Below, one piece after another: positions 2,552 through 9,117 of a stretch of 14,525 nucleotides of DNA. Position 1 is the first letter of the stretch. Every line of letters starts with the position of its first letter. Below the pieces are notes generated by a model. It made no database searches. It saw only the letters and a list, made by a program, of their open reading frames with translations, and was not told the origin of the DNA. Position numbers and translations under genes: made by a program. The DNA comes from Pseudobutyrivibrio sp. GTDB taxonomy: Bacteria > Bacillota_A > Clostridia > Lachnospirales > Lachnospiraceae. Location: positions 1 through 14,525 of the forward strand of contig JAILNO010000212.1 of NCBI GenBank assembly GCA_024691465.1. Direction: 5' to 3'.

Positions 2552-2560
2552 TGTTATAAT
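2552..2560 (+). promoter_or_regulatory. extended -10 promoter of the signalling operon
   Basis: TGTTATAAT is a perfect extended -10 element (TG, one base, TATAAT). Transcription would begin near 2567, leaving a leader of about 37 bases before the ATG at 2604. No recognisable -35 is present. It lies in the 100-bp divergent region shared with the minus-strand DHH gene, for which I see only a weak -10 (TATACT read on the minus strand, at 2524-2519) that would give a nearly leaderless transcript. Confidence 0.5.
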
Positions 2561-2603
2561 TTGTAATATAATTGTTTTTCGTTTGAGAAAGACCGGGGAT
2601 TAT

Positions 2604-5600
2604 ATGATAAATGTAGATAGCATTGGTAATATTACTTTTAATCTAGCTGCACTCATCATTAGTTTTACTTGCATCATATATTCCGTAATGATGCGGAACA
2701 AGTCATCGGTAAGGAACAAGATTTTCCTTACTCTGGTTTTCATTGTCATGATTGACGCCTTCACTGGGCTATTCGCTGAGTTCGTGGGCTTCATCCATGT
2801 ATCTAACGAGCTTAAGATCATCCTATATCACTGCAGTCACTTCACATACTTCTTCACTCACTTTGCAACTGCTCCATTTCTGGCTTTATATATAATTATA
2901 TTCTGTGGCGTCTCCTTCAGATTCAGCAAGAGAGCCCGACTTATGCTTGTCTCTCCATTTATATTAATGGAGATATTAGTTCTGCTTAATCCATTTCTTC
3001 ATATCGTATATACAGTAGATGAGAATATGGTGTTCCACCGCGGTATCGGCGTGTACTTAGCCTATTTCATAAGCGCCTTCTATCTGCTATTTTCCATAGT
3101 CGCACTAGTATTATATTGGAATGTGTTCAACAAGCTGAAAAAGTACGCTATTAGTTACTTTTTATTCTTAGTCATAGCTGGTACAGTCATCCAGATGTTC
3201 TTCATCGAGATCCGCTGCGAGCTCATGTGCCATGCCATCGGTCTGATTGGTATCATGATCATCTTCGAAAATGACGATGACCGCTACGACCTCACCACAG
3301 GTGCTTACAATCGCGCCTCTTTCCTAAGGGACATGAAGATATACTTCAAGTACGATAGGGATTTCTACGGAATATGTATCCGCATACAGAATGCTGATTT
3401 ATATAGGAAGATTACCGGTTACGAAGAGTACGAGCGTATCCTTTATAATATCGCCATCTTCCTTAAGAGCGTCAGCCCTAACTATGACATATACAAGACC
3501 AGCGCTGATTGTTTCTTCCTAATCTGTCCTGATATCGAGCATGCCAACGCCAGCCAGCTGTCGGAGAAGATATTCGACAGATTCTCTAAGGAATGGATAC
3601 ATGACGGTGGAAGCTTCATGCTGAAGGCCCTCATAATCGAGGTACTTATGCCTGAGCAAATATCTAATCTGGACTACCTGCTACTCCTATCTGACTCTAG
3701 CATCACCACTGAGTCAGACAGGGTCTACTACAAAATAGACGATCTGGATTTCCTATTTAGAAAGGCCGACATCCAGAAGGCCATGAAGAATGGCATCGCC
3801 GATGGCAAGTTCGAGGTATGCTACCGCCCTATCTACCAGAAGGAAGGTCTTATCATATGTGGCGCCGAGTCTGTTCTTAAATTCTACGATGATGAGTTGG
3901 GCGAAGTATCCCAGGAGGAGTTCCTTCCTATAGCTTCTGAGTCAGGCATCATATCACAGTTGGGCTGGTTCAATATAGAAGAAGTATTCTATTTCCTAGG
4001 TGGTGGTATCACTGAGGAGATGGGACTGGAGTTCGTGTGCATCAATCTGTCATCACGCCAGTTCATCGAGTCTGGATTCACTGAGAAGGTTAAGTATTAT
4101 CTGAAGAAATACGGAGTGGATGCCCACAGGATAGGCTTCAACCTGTCTGAAGCGGCTGCCTCTGAGAATAAGAATGTGCTAGAGTCTATCTTAGAGGACT
4201 TGGCCACCATCGGTGTGAAGTTCTTCATGAGCGACTACGGCAAGGAATTATTTAGTATGCGTGCGGTGCTTCCGTCACTTTTTACAGGCGCCAGAATCAA
4301 GGCAAGCCTGATTCTTGATGCCCACACCAATCCTCAGAACAAGATCATCATCGACAACCGTATCAATATCATCAGCCAGATGGGCAAGACTCTCCTAATA
4401 GATGGGGTGGACAATTCTGAGATTATGAAATTCGTGGAGACCCTGGATGCCAACTACTATCAGGGCAACTACTTCTCTACCGCCACTAGTAAGAATGAGT
4501 TCATCGGTATCCTGAGGGCTACAGAGCTGGCCCGCATGGAGGAGCGTAGAGCTAAGGCTGCCAATGAGGCCAAGAGTAGCTTCCTTGCCAATATGTCCCA
4601 TGAAATCAGGACCCCTATCAATGCGGTCCTTGGTATGAACGAGGTAATACTTAGGGAGTGCAAGGATGAGAATATATTAGGCTATGCCAAGAATATCGAG
4701 GGTGCAGGCCGTACCCTCCTGTCTCTAATCAACGATATATTAGACTTCTCTAAGATTGAGTCAGGCAGTATGGAGATTAGTGAGTCAGAGTACGAGCTTT
4801 CATCACTTTTAAACGACATCTACAATATGGTTCATATCAAAGCTGAGCAGAAGTCCCTTCAGCTGGATTTCACCGTGGAGAACACCCTGCCTAACATCCT
4901 CTACGGCGATGAGATGCGCATGCGCCAGGTGATTGTGAACCTGCTTAACAATGCTGTGAAATATACTCTTGAGGGTAGCGTATCCCTGACACTCACTGGT
5001 ATCAAGAAAAGTGACGAGAAAATCGACCTGGTCATCAGCATCAGCGATACGGGTATCGGCATCAAGGAAGAGGATATGGATAGCCTCTTCGACAAGTTCA
5101 AGCGCTTAGAGATTGATAAGAACAAGACTGTGGAAGGCAGTGGCTTGGGCCTGGCCATCACCCACTCACTGGTGAAGCTTATGCATGGAGGCATCGATGT
5201 AGAGTCCGTCTATGGCGAGGGTTCCACCTTCACTGTGGTGGTTCCACAGAGGATTATGTCCGACGTGATAATAGGCGATTTCAAGTCCCGTATCAGCAAG
5301 GCCGCCAAGGAACACACTACCTACAAGGAGATGTTCGTAGCCCCTAGAGCACAGCTGCTTGTGGTGGACGACACACCTATGAATCACGTGGTTATCAAGG
5401 AGCTCCTTAAGCATACCAAGATACATATAGAATCAGCCAAGAGCGGTAAAGAGTGCCTAGAGTTACAGCATAATAAGAAGTACGACATCATATTCCTAGA
5501 CTACCGCATGCCTGAGATGAATGGCGTAGAGACCCTGATTAAGATGAGGGAGGATCTAGACTCCCCTAACAGAGGCACCCCTGTCATCGTCCTTACAGCC

Positions 5601-6383
5601 AATGCCATCTACGGCGCAAGAGAGTCCTTCCTCAAGGAGGGATTCGATGATTACCTTACCAAGCCTATTGATTCCGAGAAGCTTGAGAAGACCATCCTGC
5701 ACTTCCTGCCTCCATCTAAGGTCCAGGTGAGCAATACAGTAGACGAGCCTGAGCCTGAGGATAGGACCGATGACAATTGGATGGAGCAGCTTGATATTGT
5801 AAAAAGGGACGAGGGCCTTAAGAACTGCGGCAATGCCGAGAGCTACTTAAGCATCATCCAGGTATACTACAAGTCCGTCCCTACCAATAAGCACAACATA
5901 GAGGAGGCCTACGAAAGCGAGGACTACGACAATTACACCAGCTACGTCCACTCCCTCAAGAGTACCTCCCGCACCATAGGAGCTATGGAGCTATCCGCCC
6001 TTGCCAAGAAGCTTGAGGATGCAGGCAATAGTAAGGATATAGACTTCATCAGGGACAACACTGCTAAGCTGCTTGAGCTCTACTCTTCCGTAGAGTACGA
6101 GCTGTCTAAGATTCCTGCTATTACAGGTAAAAGTGATGATAATATGGAAGCATCTAAGGAAGTCATAAGTGATGAGTCACTTTTAGATGCATACAATAGC
6201 ATATTAGAAACCTGCGCCAACATGGATTACGACACACTCTCATTCATACTGAAGTCAGTAAGTGAGTATAGCCTTCCGCCAGAAGATAGTGATATAATAA
6301 GGAATATAGGTGAAATGGCTTACAAGTTGGACTGGGATGGAATTACTGAAACTATCAACCGTCGCTTAACAAAGGAGAATTAA
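2604..6383 (+). CDS. membrane hybrid histidine kinase: 7TM, degenerate GGDEF, degenerate EAL, HisKA, HATPase, REC, HPt
   Basis: A 1259-residue sensor kinase. Residues 11-221 form about seven hydrophobic segments resembling the N-terminal 7TM region of histidine kinases (LLNPFLHIVY at 127-136). Residues 225-370 are GGDEF-like, but the signature is TSADCF (299-304) and cannot be catalytic. Residues 385-640 are EAL-like: E422 survives (ESV), but the metal-binding DD pair reads SD (543-544) and later motifs are altered, while YQGNYF is kept. A helical linker leads to HisKA with H666 (SHEIRTP), then an HATPase with N779, DTGIGI and GSGLGLAI (845-852). REC follows with VVDD, D966 and the KP lysine, then HPt with H1116 (HSLKSTSRTIGA), and an acidic helical tail of about 85 residues. 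The full phosphorelay looks active. The frame extends to TTG at 2583, but GGGGA lies only before the ATG at 2604. The next gene begins 3 bases after the stop. Confidence 0.93.
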   Translation: MINVDSIGNITFNLAALIISFTCIIYSVMMRNKSSVRNKIFLTLVFIVMIDAFTGLFAEFVGFIHVSNELKIILYHCSHFTYFFTHFATAPFLALYIIIFCGVSFRFSKRARLMLVSPFILMEILVLLNPFLHIVYTVDENMVFHRGIGVYLAYFISAFYLLFSIVALVLYWNVFNKLKKYAISYFLFLVIAGTVIQMFFIEIRCELMCHAIGLIGIMIIFENDDDRYDLTTGAYNRASFLRDMKIYFKYDRDFYGICIRIQNADLYRKITGYEEYERILYNIAIFLKSVSPNYDIYKTSADCFFLICPDIEHANASQLSEKIFDRFSKEWIHDGGSFMLKALIIEVLMPEQISNLDYLLLLSDSSITTESDRVYYKIDDLDFLFRKADIQKAMKNGIADGKFEVCYRPIYQKEGLIICGAESVLKFYDDELGEVSQEEFLPIASESGIISQLGWFNIEEVFYFLGGGITEEMGLEFVCINLSSRQFIESGFTEKVKYYLKKYGVDAHRIGFNLSEAAASENKNVLESILEDLATIGVKFFMSDYGKELFSMRAVLPSLFTGARIKASLILDAHTNPQNKIIIDNRINIISQMGKTLLIDGVDNSEIMKFVETLDANYYQGNYFSTATSKNEFIGILRATELARMEERRAKAANEAKSSFLANMSHEIRTPINAVLGMNEVILRECKDENILGYAKNIEGAGRTLLSLINDILDFSKIESGSMEISESEYELSSLLNDIYNMVHIKAEQKSLQLDFTVENTLPNILYGDEMRMRQVIVNLLNNAVKYTLEGSVSLTLTGIKKSDEKIDLVISISDTGIGIKEEDMDSLFDKFKRLEIDKNKTVEGSGLGLAITHSLVKLMHGGIDVESVYGEGSTFTVVVPQRIMSDVIIGDFKSRISKAAKEHTTYKEMFVAPRAQLLVVDDTPMNHVVIKELLKHTKIHIESAKSGKECLELQHNKKYDIIFLDYRMPEMNGVETLIKMREDLDSPNRGTPVIVLTANAIYGARESFLKEGFDDYLTKPIDSEKLEKTILHFLPPSKVQVSNTVDEPEPEDRTDDNWMEQLDIVKRDEGLKNCGNAESYLSIIQVYYKSVPTNKHNIEEAYESEDYDNYTSYVHSLKSTSRTIGAMELSALAKKLEDAGNSKDIDFIRDNTAKLLELYSSVEYELSKIPAITGKSDDNMEASKEVISDESLLDAYNSILETCANMDYDTLSFILKSVSEYSLPPEDSDIIRNIGEMAYKLDWDGITETINRRLTKEN

Positions 6384-6386
6384 CCC

Positions 6387-7145
6387 ATGAATGGAAAGAA
6401 GATTCTACTTGTTAGTTCAGCAGATACTTTCATGGTCAATGCTATTAAAGACAATCTCAAATCTGCCGGATTCACTGTAGAGAAAGCCAAGTACACCACA
6501 TCAGATATTAATTCTAAGGTAGAGGGTAGCATACTGATTATTCTCTATACCGATCCAGATATTGAAACTCATGACGATGTCTTCGTCTATCTGAAGGACC
6601 TATGTCTTGAGCAGAATCAGCGTATGATTATCATCGGCGAGACCGATGCCTTTGATTTCGCTCACAAGTTCATACCTAAGGAGGATATTACCTACGAGAT
6701 TCGCAGGCCTCTTGATATGGGCGACTTAACCGAGAAGGTCCTACTAGTTACCAGCGATGAATACGAGCAGCGCCGCAGGAAGAGTATCCTCATAATCGAT
6801 GATGATCCTACCTTCCTACAGATGATGCGCGAGATGCTCAGAGTTAAATACAGAGTAGGTATGGCCAATTCAGGAGCCCAGGCCATCTCTTGGCTAGCCA
6901 GCAACAATGCTGACTTGATACTCCTAGATTACGATATGCCCGTACTTAACGGTCCTAAGGTACTTGAGATGCTCAAGAGTGAACCTTCCTCTGCCTCTAT
7001 ACCTGTAATGTTCCTTACAGGCAAGAATGACAGGGATGCAGTCACCAGCGTAATCTCTCTGAAGCCAGTTGATTACCTCCTTAAGTCCATCAGCAAACCT
7101 AAGTTACTTGCCACTTTAGACAAGTTCTTTAAGACGCGAGGCTAA
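6387..7145 (+). CDS. double receiver protein: pseudo-receiver plus canonical receiver, no output domain
   Basis: A 252-residue cytoplasmic response-regulator-like protein. Residues 4-118 have a receiver fold without its chemistry: the acidic pair is replaced by SS (LLVSSAD), and the phosphoacceptor position in IILYTD is Tyr54, with Asp56 two residues later. Residues 128-250 are a canonical receiver: IIDDDP, D181 in LLDYDMP, the Thr in MFLTG, and a Lys in YLLKS (Ser where KP is usual). No DNA-binding or enzymatic domain follows, so output must come through protein contact or phosphate transfer, as in Spo0F or CheY. AGGAG lies 9 bases before the ATG, which starts 3 bases after the kinase stop. 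The stop overlaps the next ATG (TAATG), suggesting translational coupling. It is the likely partner of the kinase HPt domain; that pairing is inferred from operon position. Confidence 0.9.
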   Translation: MNGKKILLVSSADTFMVNAIKDNLKSAGFTVEKAKYTTSDINSKVEGSILIILYTDPDIETHDDVFVYLKDLCLEQNQRMIIIGETDAFDFAHKFIPKEDITYEIRRPLDMGDLTEKVLLVTSDEYEQRRRKSILIIDDDPTFLQMMREMLRVKYRVGMANSGAQAISWLASNNADLILLDYDMPVLNGPKVLEMLKSEPSSASIPVMFLTGKNDRDAVTSVISLKPVDYLLKSISKPKLLATLDKFFKTRG

Positions 7146-9100
7146 TGCCTATGTATATTATGGAAATCAACGCTATGGGTGGCACTACCTTTAGGATAGC
7201 GGCCACCATAGTCAGTCTTACATGTGTTTTTTATACGATTCTTATTCAGCGAAGGCACAGTCAACGAAGCCGTCTATTTTTGATGCTTCTTTCCATAGTT
7301 CTAGTGGATTCCATCACAGGAATCATCGCCTATAAGACCTTCACATCATCCCTGCCTTACGAGTTCAGGTTCGTAGTCTGCTACTGCTGCAGGATGATAT
7401 ATTTCGCCACCCATTTCGCACTGCTCTACATATTCTCCCTCTACATAATTCATATGTGCAATCTGGTGTACAAGTTCGACCGCAATATCCAGAAATACCT
7501 GGCTATTCCTATTGCTATCATCGAGGCACTGCTTTTAAGTAATCCCTTCACCCACCTATTCTTCAAAGTGGACAAGGACATAGTCTTCACCAGAGAGATA
7601 GGCATATACATCGCCTACTTCATAGGTGGACTGTACTTCCTGCTGTGCTTCTACATACTTGCCAAGTACTGGCACACCATCAATCATCATAAGAAGATTG
7701 CCATGTTCTACTTCGTGTCCCTGGCAGTCCTGGGTATCATAATACAGATGATCTACCCTCACATCACCTGCGAGCTCCTATGCGAATCCATCGGACTCAT
7801 GGGCCTTATGATTATGATCGAGAAAGAGGACGACAAGCTGGACAGTACTACCAACGCCTACAATCGTTCCACCTTTATCTACGACCTGAATGGTCTCCTT
7901 AAGATGAAGGTGCCATTCCAGATCATATGTATCCGTATCGACAATTCAGGAACCTATCGCAGGATTACAGGATACGAAAATTTCGACCACATACTCTCGG
8001 AGATTAGTGACTTTCTCATTAATCTGGCTGGAGATTACAATGTATATAAGATTGGCGATGCCAATTTCTTCATACTGCTACCTATGGTCTCTGACCTGGA
8101 TGTAAAAAATTACGCCGATGCCATAGAAGAGAGGTTCAACGTAGGTTTTACCTCCGAGAACAGCACCACCATCATAGTGGAAACCATACTGTGTGCCAAG
8201 TCACCAGAGCAGTTCACCACTGCCGATGACATCTCACTCCTAGCCGATGCCCCTATGGAAAACGATGACAACAGGAGGACCTTCTTCTACGATGAGCTAG
8301 ACTTCCTGATTAACAATATTGCCATCGAGAAAGCTATTTCCATCGGTCTATCCACTAACAACTTCAGCGTCAATTATCAGCCTATATATGATATGAGATA
8401 CGGTAGAATCAAGGCTATGCAGGCACTCCTCAAGCTCAATGACCCTAAATTAGGCGATATCAATTTCAGCGAATTCATGCCTATAGCAGAGCGTGCTGGA
8501 CTGGCCGATACTCTCGAGGAGAAGATGATAGAGTCAATCTTCAGATTCGCAGGTACGGAGCTTGCTTCAGCCAATGTGCATCCAGACTTCATATTGATAC
8601 ACCTCATGTCCATCAACTTCTCTAATAAGAATCTGGTGGAGACCATCATGGGACTTAAGTACAAGTACAATATAGACCCATCTCTCATAGTGTTTGATAT
8701 AGACGATACCATCCTTAATCTAGGCCACGAGAATCTGTCATACGTATTAAATGAGCTATATGATGAGGGCTTCGGCCTGTTCTTAGGAAATTACGACCTG
8801 TCTAACTTAGGTCAGAATGAAGATGTATTAAATAAGTTCAGAGGCGTGGTGCTGACAGCCTGGAAGTTCCTAGACAGGCGCTACATTAGCCACGGCAATG
8901 TGGTCCTTAAGACCAGAGCTGAGATGCTTAATGAACTTAAGAAGGAAGTATTAATCACTGGTGTGGATTACGCTTCCGCATACGAAGTTACCAAGAATAC
9001 CAGAGCCTCTTATATCTCAGGCAAGTACATGGCCGAACCTCTTTCCAGGGAAGAAATAATAGCTCGATTTAAAAATATGGACATAGTAAAAGGCATCTAG
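7145..9100 (+). CDS. 7TM membrane protein with degenerate GGDEF and degenerate EAL domains, paralogue of the kinase N-terminus
   Basis: A 651-residue membrane protein whose whole length parallels the first 640 or so residues of the kinase at 2604: the same 7TM pattern, LLLSNPFTHLFF against LVLLNPFLHIVY, the shared TTxAYNR entry to the GGDEF region, and YRRITGY against YRKITGY. It stops where the kinase adds HisKA. The GGDEF signature reads IGDANF (303-308). The EAL glutamate is Gln426 (QAL), and the DD motif is lost (GNYD). Neither diguanylate cyclase nor phosphodiesterase activity is expected. It may act as a sensor, an assembly partner or a competitor of the kinase. The ATG at 7145 overlaps the preceding stop, but GAGG (7138-7141) is better spaced for the ATG at 7151, and alignment with the kinase would also allow 7160. 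The stop codon lies inside the terminator stem. Confidence 0.9.
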   Translation: MPMYIMEINAMGGTTFRIAATIVSLTCVFYTILIQRRHSQRSRLFLMLLSIVLVDSITGIIAYKTFTSSLPYEFRFVVCYCCRMIYFATHFALLYIFSLYIIHMCNLVYKFDRNIQKYLAIPIAIIEALLLSNPFTHLFFKVDKDIVFTREIGIYIAYFIGGLYFLLCFYILAKYWHTINHHKKIAMFYFVSLAVLGIIIQMIYPHITCELLCESIGLMGLMIMIEKEDDKLDSTTNAYNRSTFIYDLNGLLKMKVPFQIICIRIDNSGTYRRITGYENFDHILSEISDFLINLAGDYNVYKIGDANFFILLPMVSDLDVKNYADAIEERFNVGFTSENSTTIIVETILCAKSPEQFTTADDISLLADAPMENDDNRRTFFYDELDFLINNIAIEKAISIGLSTNNFSVNYQPIYDMRYGRIKAMQALLKLNDPKLGDINFSEFMPIAERAGLADTLEEKMIESIFRFAGTELASANVHPDFILIHLMSINFSNKNLVETIMGLKYKYNIDPSLIVFDIDDTILNLGHENLSYVLNELYDEGFGLFLGNYDLSNLGQNEDVLNKFRGVVLTAWKFLDRRYISHGNVVLKTRAEMLNELKKEVLITGVDYASAYEVTKNTRASYISGKYMAEPLSREEIIARFKNMDIVKGI

Positions 9101-9117
9101 TATTTCTAGATGCCTTT
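9089..9117. terminator. bidirectional intrinsic terminator
   Basis: A perfect 12-bp stem (AAAGGCATCTAG at 9089-9100 with CTAGATGCCTTT at 9106-9117) encloses a 5-base loop. The stem's 3' arm ends in three U and is followed by U-rich sequence; the minus-strand reading likewise gives a CCUUUU tail. It separates the convergent signalling operon and fbp. The TAG stop of the plus-strand gene (9098-9100) forms the top of the stem. Confidence 0.88.

Follow-up and report, generated by a model that had tools for sequence, protein, structure and literature searches.

Inactive domains of the type associated with cyclic dimeric guanosine monophosphate (c-di-GMP) are already known from several signalling proteins. 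The hybrid histidine kinase SgmT of Myxococcus xanthus, a cytoplasmic protein, joins a GAF sensor to a catalytically dead C-terminal GGDEF domain with an intact I-site (PMC3509222), the multistep ShkA-ShpA-TacA relay of Caulobacter is tied to c-di-GMP and includes a pseudo-receiver, located inside the kinase ShkA, that binds the nucleotide (PMC7010744), and LapD and FimX put a GGDEF-EAL fold without the full set of catalytic residues to signalling use (for FimX, PMC3527489). The present analysis concerns a 14,525-nucleotide stretch of Pseudobutyrivibrio sp. DNA (contig JAILNO010000212.1), called the window throughout, and the three consecutive genes A, B and C within it, which on balance appear to constitute a membrane-anchored phosphorelay with a non-catalytic GGDEF-EAL fold as its input platform. 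A first-pass annotation, made from the sequence alone, had placed the c-di-GMP-type domains on the input side of such a relay; their position and the loss of their active sites agree with that proposal, which is refined here by the finding that the erosion is graded among relatives. The genes and their domains, including a seven-transmembrane (7TM) region in both A and C, are as follows:

2604..6383, + strand: gene A, ATG start, 1259 aa; 7TM - GGDEF-like - EAL-like - HisKA - HATPase - REC - Hpt hybrid kinase
2613..3269, + strand: membrane-helix region of A (residues 4-222), from the AlphaFold helices
3279..3761, + strand: GGDEF-like domain of A (residues 226-386), with SADCF in place of GGDEF and no Pfam match
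3783..4481, + strand: EAL-like domain of A (residues 394-626), 5 of 11 scored residues kept
4569..5252, + strand: HisKA (His666) and HATPase_c of A, from Pfam and invariant residues
5358..5696, + strand: receiver domain of A (Asp966), from Pfam and invariant residues
5853..6032, + strand: Hpt domain of A (His1116), from Pfam and invariant residues
6387..7145, + strand: gene B, 252 aa; likely pseudo-receiver followed by a receiver
6387..6752, + strand: probable pseudo-receiver of B, with Tyr54 at the phospho-Asp place in a weak alignment
6786..7118, + strand: intact receiver of B (Asp181, Thr211, Lys233), from Pfam and alignment
7145..9100, + strand: gene C, 651 aa; 7TM - GGDEF-like - EAL-like, a kinase-less paralogue of the front half of A
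8333..9040, + strand: EAL-like domain of C, 0 of 11 scored residues kept

The three open reading frames share the + strand, with a gap of 3 bases between A and B and an overlap of 1 base between B and C, in agreement with the first-pass annotation, and the complete hybrid kinase with Hpt that it saw in A is borne out by Pfam (EAL 6.4e-35, HisKA 8.9e-18, HATPase 7.1e-26, REC 1.7e-24, Hpt 1.9e-9). In an alignment of 40 A-type proteins, made up of that of the window and 39 chosen from 55 close relatives, all 14 kinase, receiver and Hpt residues tested are invariant in 40/40 rows; the HisKA His, the ATP-binding boxes, the Asp, Thr and Lys of the receiver and the Hpt His are all kept in A, whose sequence thus provides what autophosphorylation requires (His666) as well as the acceptor sites of its receiver (Asp966) and its Hpt (His1116). 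The Pfam scan gave no match to HisKA_7TM (PF16927) for A or C of the window; a related protein (P0061) reaches 34.6 bits, above the cut-off of 28.6, and two others (P0033, 26.7; C of locus L109, 26.1) stay below it.

The double receiver announced between A and C is only half regular. Pfam gives B a single REC match (2.6e-24), and the N-terminal half is without a significant one. The second receiver is complete, as befits a terminal response regulator, its Asp and Thr being present in 40/40 B proteins (window and 39 loci) and its Lys in 39/40, the remaining row ending earlier. The N-terminal one is probably a pseudo-receiver: a weak profile alignment (probability 7%) matches its Tyr54 and Gly84, both invariant in 40/40 B proteins, to the phospho-Asp and the Thr of its neighbour, and a motif reading, separate from that alignment, would put Arg107 at the Lys place. 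Asp56, two places after Tyr54, is also invariant and may represent a shifted phospho-Asp. Ligand binding to pseudo-receivers is known, for example at the c-di-GMP site of ShkA (PMC12632262, PMC7010744). Transfer from A to B is very probable, and two single proteins of other loci (L128, L129), in which a receiver, an Hpt-like stretch and a B pair are fused, support a step from Hpt to B; their Hpt-like stretches score 22.4 and 22.0 bits, under the Pfam cut-off of 24.6. Pfam recognised no DNA-binding or enzymatic output in A, B or C.

The front halves of A and C keep the fold of their enzymatic relatives and little of its chemistry; the first-pass annotation had described a loss of catalytic motifs in its two 7TM proteins. 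AlphaFold models of residues 1-765 of A (predicted local distance difference test, pLDDT, 80.6; predicted template-modelling score, pTM, 0.50) and of C (pLDDT 79.9, pTM 0.61) have eight N-terminal helices in A and seven in C, followed by GGDEF and then EAL folds, and in A a helix at residues 630-685 runs from the EAL domain into the HisKA hairpin. Both proteins match the EAL family (PF00563; 3.6e-22 for C), and in Foldseek searches the EAL fold reaches TM-scores by target length of up to 0.90 (A) and 0.87 (C), the top matches being the GGDEF-EAL structures MorA, DosP, PA0575, PA0861 and LapD. The GGDEF site itself reads SADCF in A and GDANF in C, so that neither has the GG[DE]EF motif of PF00990; A gives no GGDEF match in Pfam and C one of 9e-4, under the Pfam cut-off. 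A looser [GA]G[DE]EF was found in 0/50 A-type proteins, 0/42 C-type proteins and 0/36 other 7TM-GGDEF-EAL relatives, a few of these rows ending at contig ends. In A and C of the window, the 15 residues before the degenerate GGDEF site contain no Arg, and so no RxxD I-site. Eleven EAL positions were scored against the phosphodiesterase MorA, with roles taken from PMC7911125 and PMC12900916 and, for the loop-6 Glu, in part from general background. By this score A keeps 5/11 and C 0/11, the Arg of EALxR is Lys in both, and the Glu of EGVE is Asp in A and Thr in C, so that neither has the full set of catalytic and metal residues. Profile searches revealed no intact GGDEF or EAL active site in either protein, and turnover of c-di-GMP by A or C would be extremely improbable.

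Among relatives, the loss of the EAL site is a matter of degree. In total, 133 unique EAL proteins were scored, the window not counted; the loci from which they come were chosen as best matches and are not a random sample. Of 50 EAL domains fused to a kinase, 47 keep between 1 and 7 of the 11 residues and three (L066, L067, L068) keep 10, their sole scored change being EGVE Glu to Ser or Thr; the 42 partners beside a fused kinase keep 0 to 9. The other 7TM-GGDEF-EAL relatives, whose loci have no fused kinase, keep 11/11 in 26 of 36 cases and for that reason are probably active phosphodiesterases. The ten exceptions comprise four remnants treated below (L109-L112), a module partner with its kinase truncated at the end of the contig (L041), a protein cut short (L043) and one protein each of L042, L075, L079 and L080; five further EAL proteins without a 7TM match score 11 in four cases and 8 in a cut module partner. 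The EGVE Glu is accordingly distributed as 0/50 in kinase-fused domains, 0/42 in partners and 26/36 in the others. The partner C of modules with the order A-C-B keeps 7-8 residues (9 in the A-C pair of L126), Arg, Asn and Lys among them, as against 3-6 in the EAL domain of its kinase. In Butyrivibrio, A has a mean score of 4.1 over 37 loci and C one of 1.3 over 35 loci, and carboxylates are often swapped in A (E1 to Asp in 18/37, D2 to Glu in 27/37, EGVE Glu to Asp in 13/37). Neighbouring pairs of 7TM-GGDEF-EAL genes also occur (L042, L069, L075-L080); in L042, L075, L079 and L080 an intact EAL site in one protein is paired with an eroded one in a neighbour, and in L069, L076, L077 and L078 both members have 11/11.

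Genes A, B and C travel together. As the 45 loci initially found through C are biased towards that gene, whole genomes were scanned separately with profiles of A (cut-off E <= 1e-290), module-type B (E <= 1e-95) and C. In the Butyrivibrio group (79 genomes, the genus-level group of Butyrivibrio proteoclasticus, G006), A is present in 45 genomes and module-type B in exactly the same 45. Both share contig and strand in 43 of them, being split over contigs in the other two, and are adjacent in 39, with one gene between them in 4. C adjoins B in 43 genomes, after it in 38 and before it in 5; the two genomes for which no C is listed are explained by contig ends (G464; L037). This neighbourhood search thus did not show the three genes apart in relatives. 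Outside this group A is sparse: it was found in 2/29 genomes of the Pseudobutyrivibrio group of G001, the nearest to the window by identity, and, with two candidates scored per genome, matches reaching its N-terminus came from 6/397 sampled genomes of the family (that of G332 ending before Hpt) and 4/391 of the class. The module is self-contained only in part: in 35/45 genomes the unit sits directly behind a gene for an HDOD protein, and B-type receivers adjoin other hybrid kinases as well. The HDOD protein (407-432 aa) lies 7-138 bp upstream of A in the 31 loci L007-L037, with 77-97% identity to the protein of L007. Its gene belongs to the core set (75/79 and 27/29 genomes of the two groups) and does not adjoin the module in the window or in L001-L006. 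A part in the output of phospho-B is a lead only.

The eroded EAL domains are under purifying selection and are not decaying. In eight pairs of related modules their ratio of non-synonymous to synonymous substitution (dN/dS) is 0.02-0.11, compared with 0.04-0.19 for the 7TM and 0.03-0.11 for the GGDEF parts, dS being near saturation in several pairs. Two trees were built, from all columns (77 rows) and from the 7TM and GGDEF parts alone (54 rows), and in both the A and C proteins of Butyrivibrio form one clade (support 100; 100/100), apart from which the C proteins of A-C-B modules are placed. A single clade for all C proteins is rejected in the 7TM+GGDEF tree (p 6e-6), the tested groups having been named by gene role before testing and after the first tree had been seen. 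A single clade for all A proteins was also rejected (p 5e-55), an outcome to be expected had C arisen from within A, and one that says little about repeated fusion because the Butyrivibrio C proteins lie among the A rows. The kinases of L066-L068 and of the A-C-B modules are placed differently in the two trees. The gene order follows the split, A-B-C versus A-C-B, and the trees, with their long branches, suggest two separate origins of C.

A natural loss of the kinase is also probable. Four genomes (L109-L112) lack the kinase half of A and module-type B, and retain a 7TM-GGDEF stub of 380-400 aa together with a C-like protein, behind the same HDOD gene as the module of L007-L037. Two of the four pairs are in the tree, where the stub is placed next to A of L007 and L014 and the partner next to C of these loci, and all six pairwise dN/dS values are 0.04-0.08 for each of the two genes; the simplest interpretation is a loss of the kinase half and of B with retention of the membrane pair. 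Downstream of the pair, L109 has a solute-binding protein, a kinase of the His_kinase type and an AraC-type regulator. Taken together, these data allow the tentative proposal that the EAL fold was turned twice, independently, from an enzyme into a heterodimeric input platform of a histidine kinase, and that one lineage later discarded the kinase. One origin would have recruited a separate 7TM-GGDEF-EAL protein (order A-C-B, partner with 7-9 of 11 residues) and the other would have duplicated the kinase's own front half (order A-B-C, partner with 0-4 of 11), the signal passing in both by contact between folds and no longer by c-di-GMP.

The most probable pathway for the window would start with the uptake of a signal by the 7TM and non-catalytic GGDEF-EAL parts of A, which would pass it through the EAL-HisKA helix to the kinase core. 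C would pair with A through the same fold and tune it, the Hpt of A (His1116) would pass the phosphate to the second receiver of B, and phospho-B would act by protein contact, given that no DNA-binding or enzymatic output is recognised in the unit. The EAL domain would go back to a phosphodiesterase of c-di-GMP, probably by way of an intermediate able to bind the ligand and not to cleave it, as suggested by the three A-B modules L066-L068, and in the window it would most likely serve as an element of dimerisation and transmission, with a changed ligand or none.

Several observations weigh against this scheme. The pairing of A with C is drawn from co-conservation and can be called moderately probable; some modules have A and B without C beside them (L066-L068, L127), others A and C without B (L038, L126), and the models of A and C are single chains of about 80 in pLDDT with the pTM values given above. 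The significance of the EGVE Glu depends on the source: PMC12900916 names it the catalytic base and predicts that domains without it are inactive, PMC7911125 lists E352 of RocR under metal coordination and E175 under catalysis, and PMC3527489 names the Glu of the EAL motif as the general base. In 14 of the 50 kinase-fused domains this Glu is replaced by the similar Asp, as in A of the window, and it is also lost in 6/30 tree proteins labelled stand-alone, two of them remnants. Finally, the association of its loss with kinase fusion is not significant after correction for kinship (3 independent pairs, median p 0.5).

Of the other explanations, the one that survives best makes C an output instead of an input partner, with phospho-B docking on C and acting through its 7TM part or its eroded EAL surface. 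This is possible, if not favoured: C comes last in the A-B-C operon, A and B have no other recognised output, and EAL proteins working solely by protein contact are known (PMC12900916), but C stands between A and B in A-C-B modules, persists in the four remnants without module-type B or the kinase half, and is missing beside A and B in some modules. Retention of c-di-GMP binding of the LapD or FimX kind by A, C or both in the window, which would make the module a c-di-GMP-gated kinase, is rather unlikely. The relatives offer the best arguments for it, as the three kinase-fused proteins with 10/11 residues plausibly bind the nucleotide, the C proteins of A-C-B modules keep 7-9 with Arg, Asn and Lys intact, structures of LapD and FimX are among the fold matches, and the four genomes checked contain 27, 32, 41 and 61 GGDEF matches, so that the ligand should be present. 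In the window, however, the 5/11 and 0/11 scores, the Lys in place of the EALxR Arg in both proteins and the missing I-site argue against it, making binding improbable for A and very improbable for C. The first-pass annotation had left the choice between nucleotide sensing and a scaffold; sensing fits the relatives with 10/11, and in the window genome a scaffold or transmission role is likelier, since A and C keep too little of the pocket and have lost that Arg. There is still less in favour of the idea of the GGDEF-EAL parts as inert linkers subject to drift, with the kinase answering to the 7TM region alone: active-site residues do differ between species, yet the dN/dS of the EAL domains is comparable to that of the 7TM and GGDEF regions, the fold is kept in the models and several EAL positions are invariant among the aligned A-type proteins. 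That A or C makes or cleaves c-di-GMP by an unusual site is hardly credible, despite the carboxylates that many Butyrivibrio A proteins keep through Glu/Asp swaps, as the EGVE Glu is missing in 92/92 module proteins scored (50 fused, 42 partners) and in none of them was the GGDEF motif found.

The relay with a non-catalytic input platform also gains from the distribution of B outside the module. The B profile gives 108 matches at E <= 1e-30 in 25 genomes, partial ones counted. Among 20 additional neighbourhoods of B, 19 include a gene for a hybrid kinase or a REC-Hpt protein in the cluster and one (L049) has no kinase; L065, one of the 20, is another A-C-B module, and the B of L050 was located by the profile scan. 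B is thus a recurrent double receiver of Lachnospiraceae, partly seen by Pfam, which gains a likely place as terminal phosphate acceptor. Proteins of this type recur beside many hybrid kinases of the family (L046-L065, L088-L106), as a general relay partner, and these kinases carry FIST, Reg_prop, DegV or unrecognised added domains; a DegV domain (PF02645) lies within the hybrid histidine kinases at L062:9352-12783 and L064:10022-12697. The fusion protein of L128 (2735-4468) is encoded between a SpoIIE phosphatase gene (970-2703) and a GGDEF gene (4571-6004), a possible hint of the output of B-type receivers.

With respect to the DNA around the unit in the window, the remaining features are:

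501-863, + strand: 120-aa open reading frame without a Pfam match at E <= 0.01
962-2548, - strand: DHH/DHHA1 phosphoesterase gene, divergent from A
9089..9117, + strand: terminator-like hairpin of 12 pairs, overlapping the stop codon of C

The single promoter that the first-pass annotation placed ahead of A found no support: a consensus scan of the window lists none on the + strand at 2400-2604, and such sites are overall at chance (30 found, 30.2 expected). The starts of A and the DHH gene are 55 to about 100 bp apart, a space that the promoters of both would have to share. The predicted terminator is present as the hairpin listed, in a window where terminator-like sites are at chance level (9 found, 7.3 expected, sd 2.4). 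Neither the DHH phosphoesterase nor the fructose bisphosphatase flanking the unit recurs above 60 bits in the 45 loci, other flanking genes not having been sought, and C has no match in the plasmid collection searched.

Rumen bacteria of the Butyrivibrio type carry a unit whose relatives suggest how an enzyme can become a signalling part, by a series of steps from an active enzyme through loss of the EGVE Glu and then of the pocket to loss of the kinase; natural proteins representing every stage make the passage from enzyme by way of sensor to scaffold open to test. In openly licensed papers, the titles and beginnings of abstracts contained no description of such an arrangement, those on Butyrivibrio and c-di-GMP did not mention the module, and nothing was found on Lachnospiraceae with EAL domain and histidine kinase. 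Gating of kinases by nucleotide receptors is known; what these searches did not reveal is a hybrid kinase that has GGDEF-EAL as its front end and is accompanied by a pseudo-enzyme lacking the kinase part.

Among the nearest known systems are the kinase-less 7TM-GGDEF-EAL proteins of Lachnospiraceae, which have the same front half (those of L039 and L042 match that of A at 28-30% identity) and differ in having no kinase and, in 26/36 cases, a full EAL site. The hybrid kinases paired with B-type double receivers in the same family are of the same HK-REC-Hpt type and share the B receiver; unlike A, they have FIST, a Reg_prop propeller or no Pfam-recognised input, and some carry DegV. LapD and FimX are not known to be fused to a kinase; they resemble A and C in using a GGDEF-EAL fold without full catalytic residues for signalling, and bind c-di-GMP, which is unlikely for A and C of the window. 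The likeness to ShkA-ShpA-TacA lies in a multistep relay with a pseudo-receiver, although in that system it is part of the kinase and binds c-di-GMP, whereas here the probable one is in the separate protein B and has no known ligand, and the A-B-C unit is without a transcription factor. SgmT is likewise a hybrid histidine kinase with a catalytically dead c-di-GMP-type domain; in contrast to its cytoplasmic arrangement of GAF sensor and C-terminal GGDEF with I-site, A has a 7TM region, an N-terminal GGDEF-EAL part without I-site in the window, an Hpt domain and a kinase-less partner.

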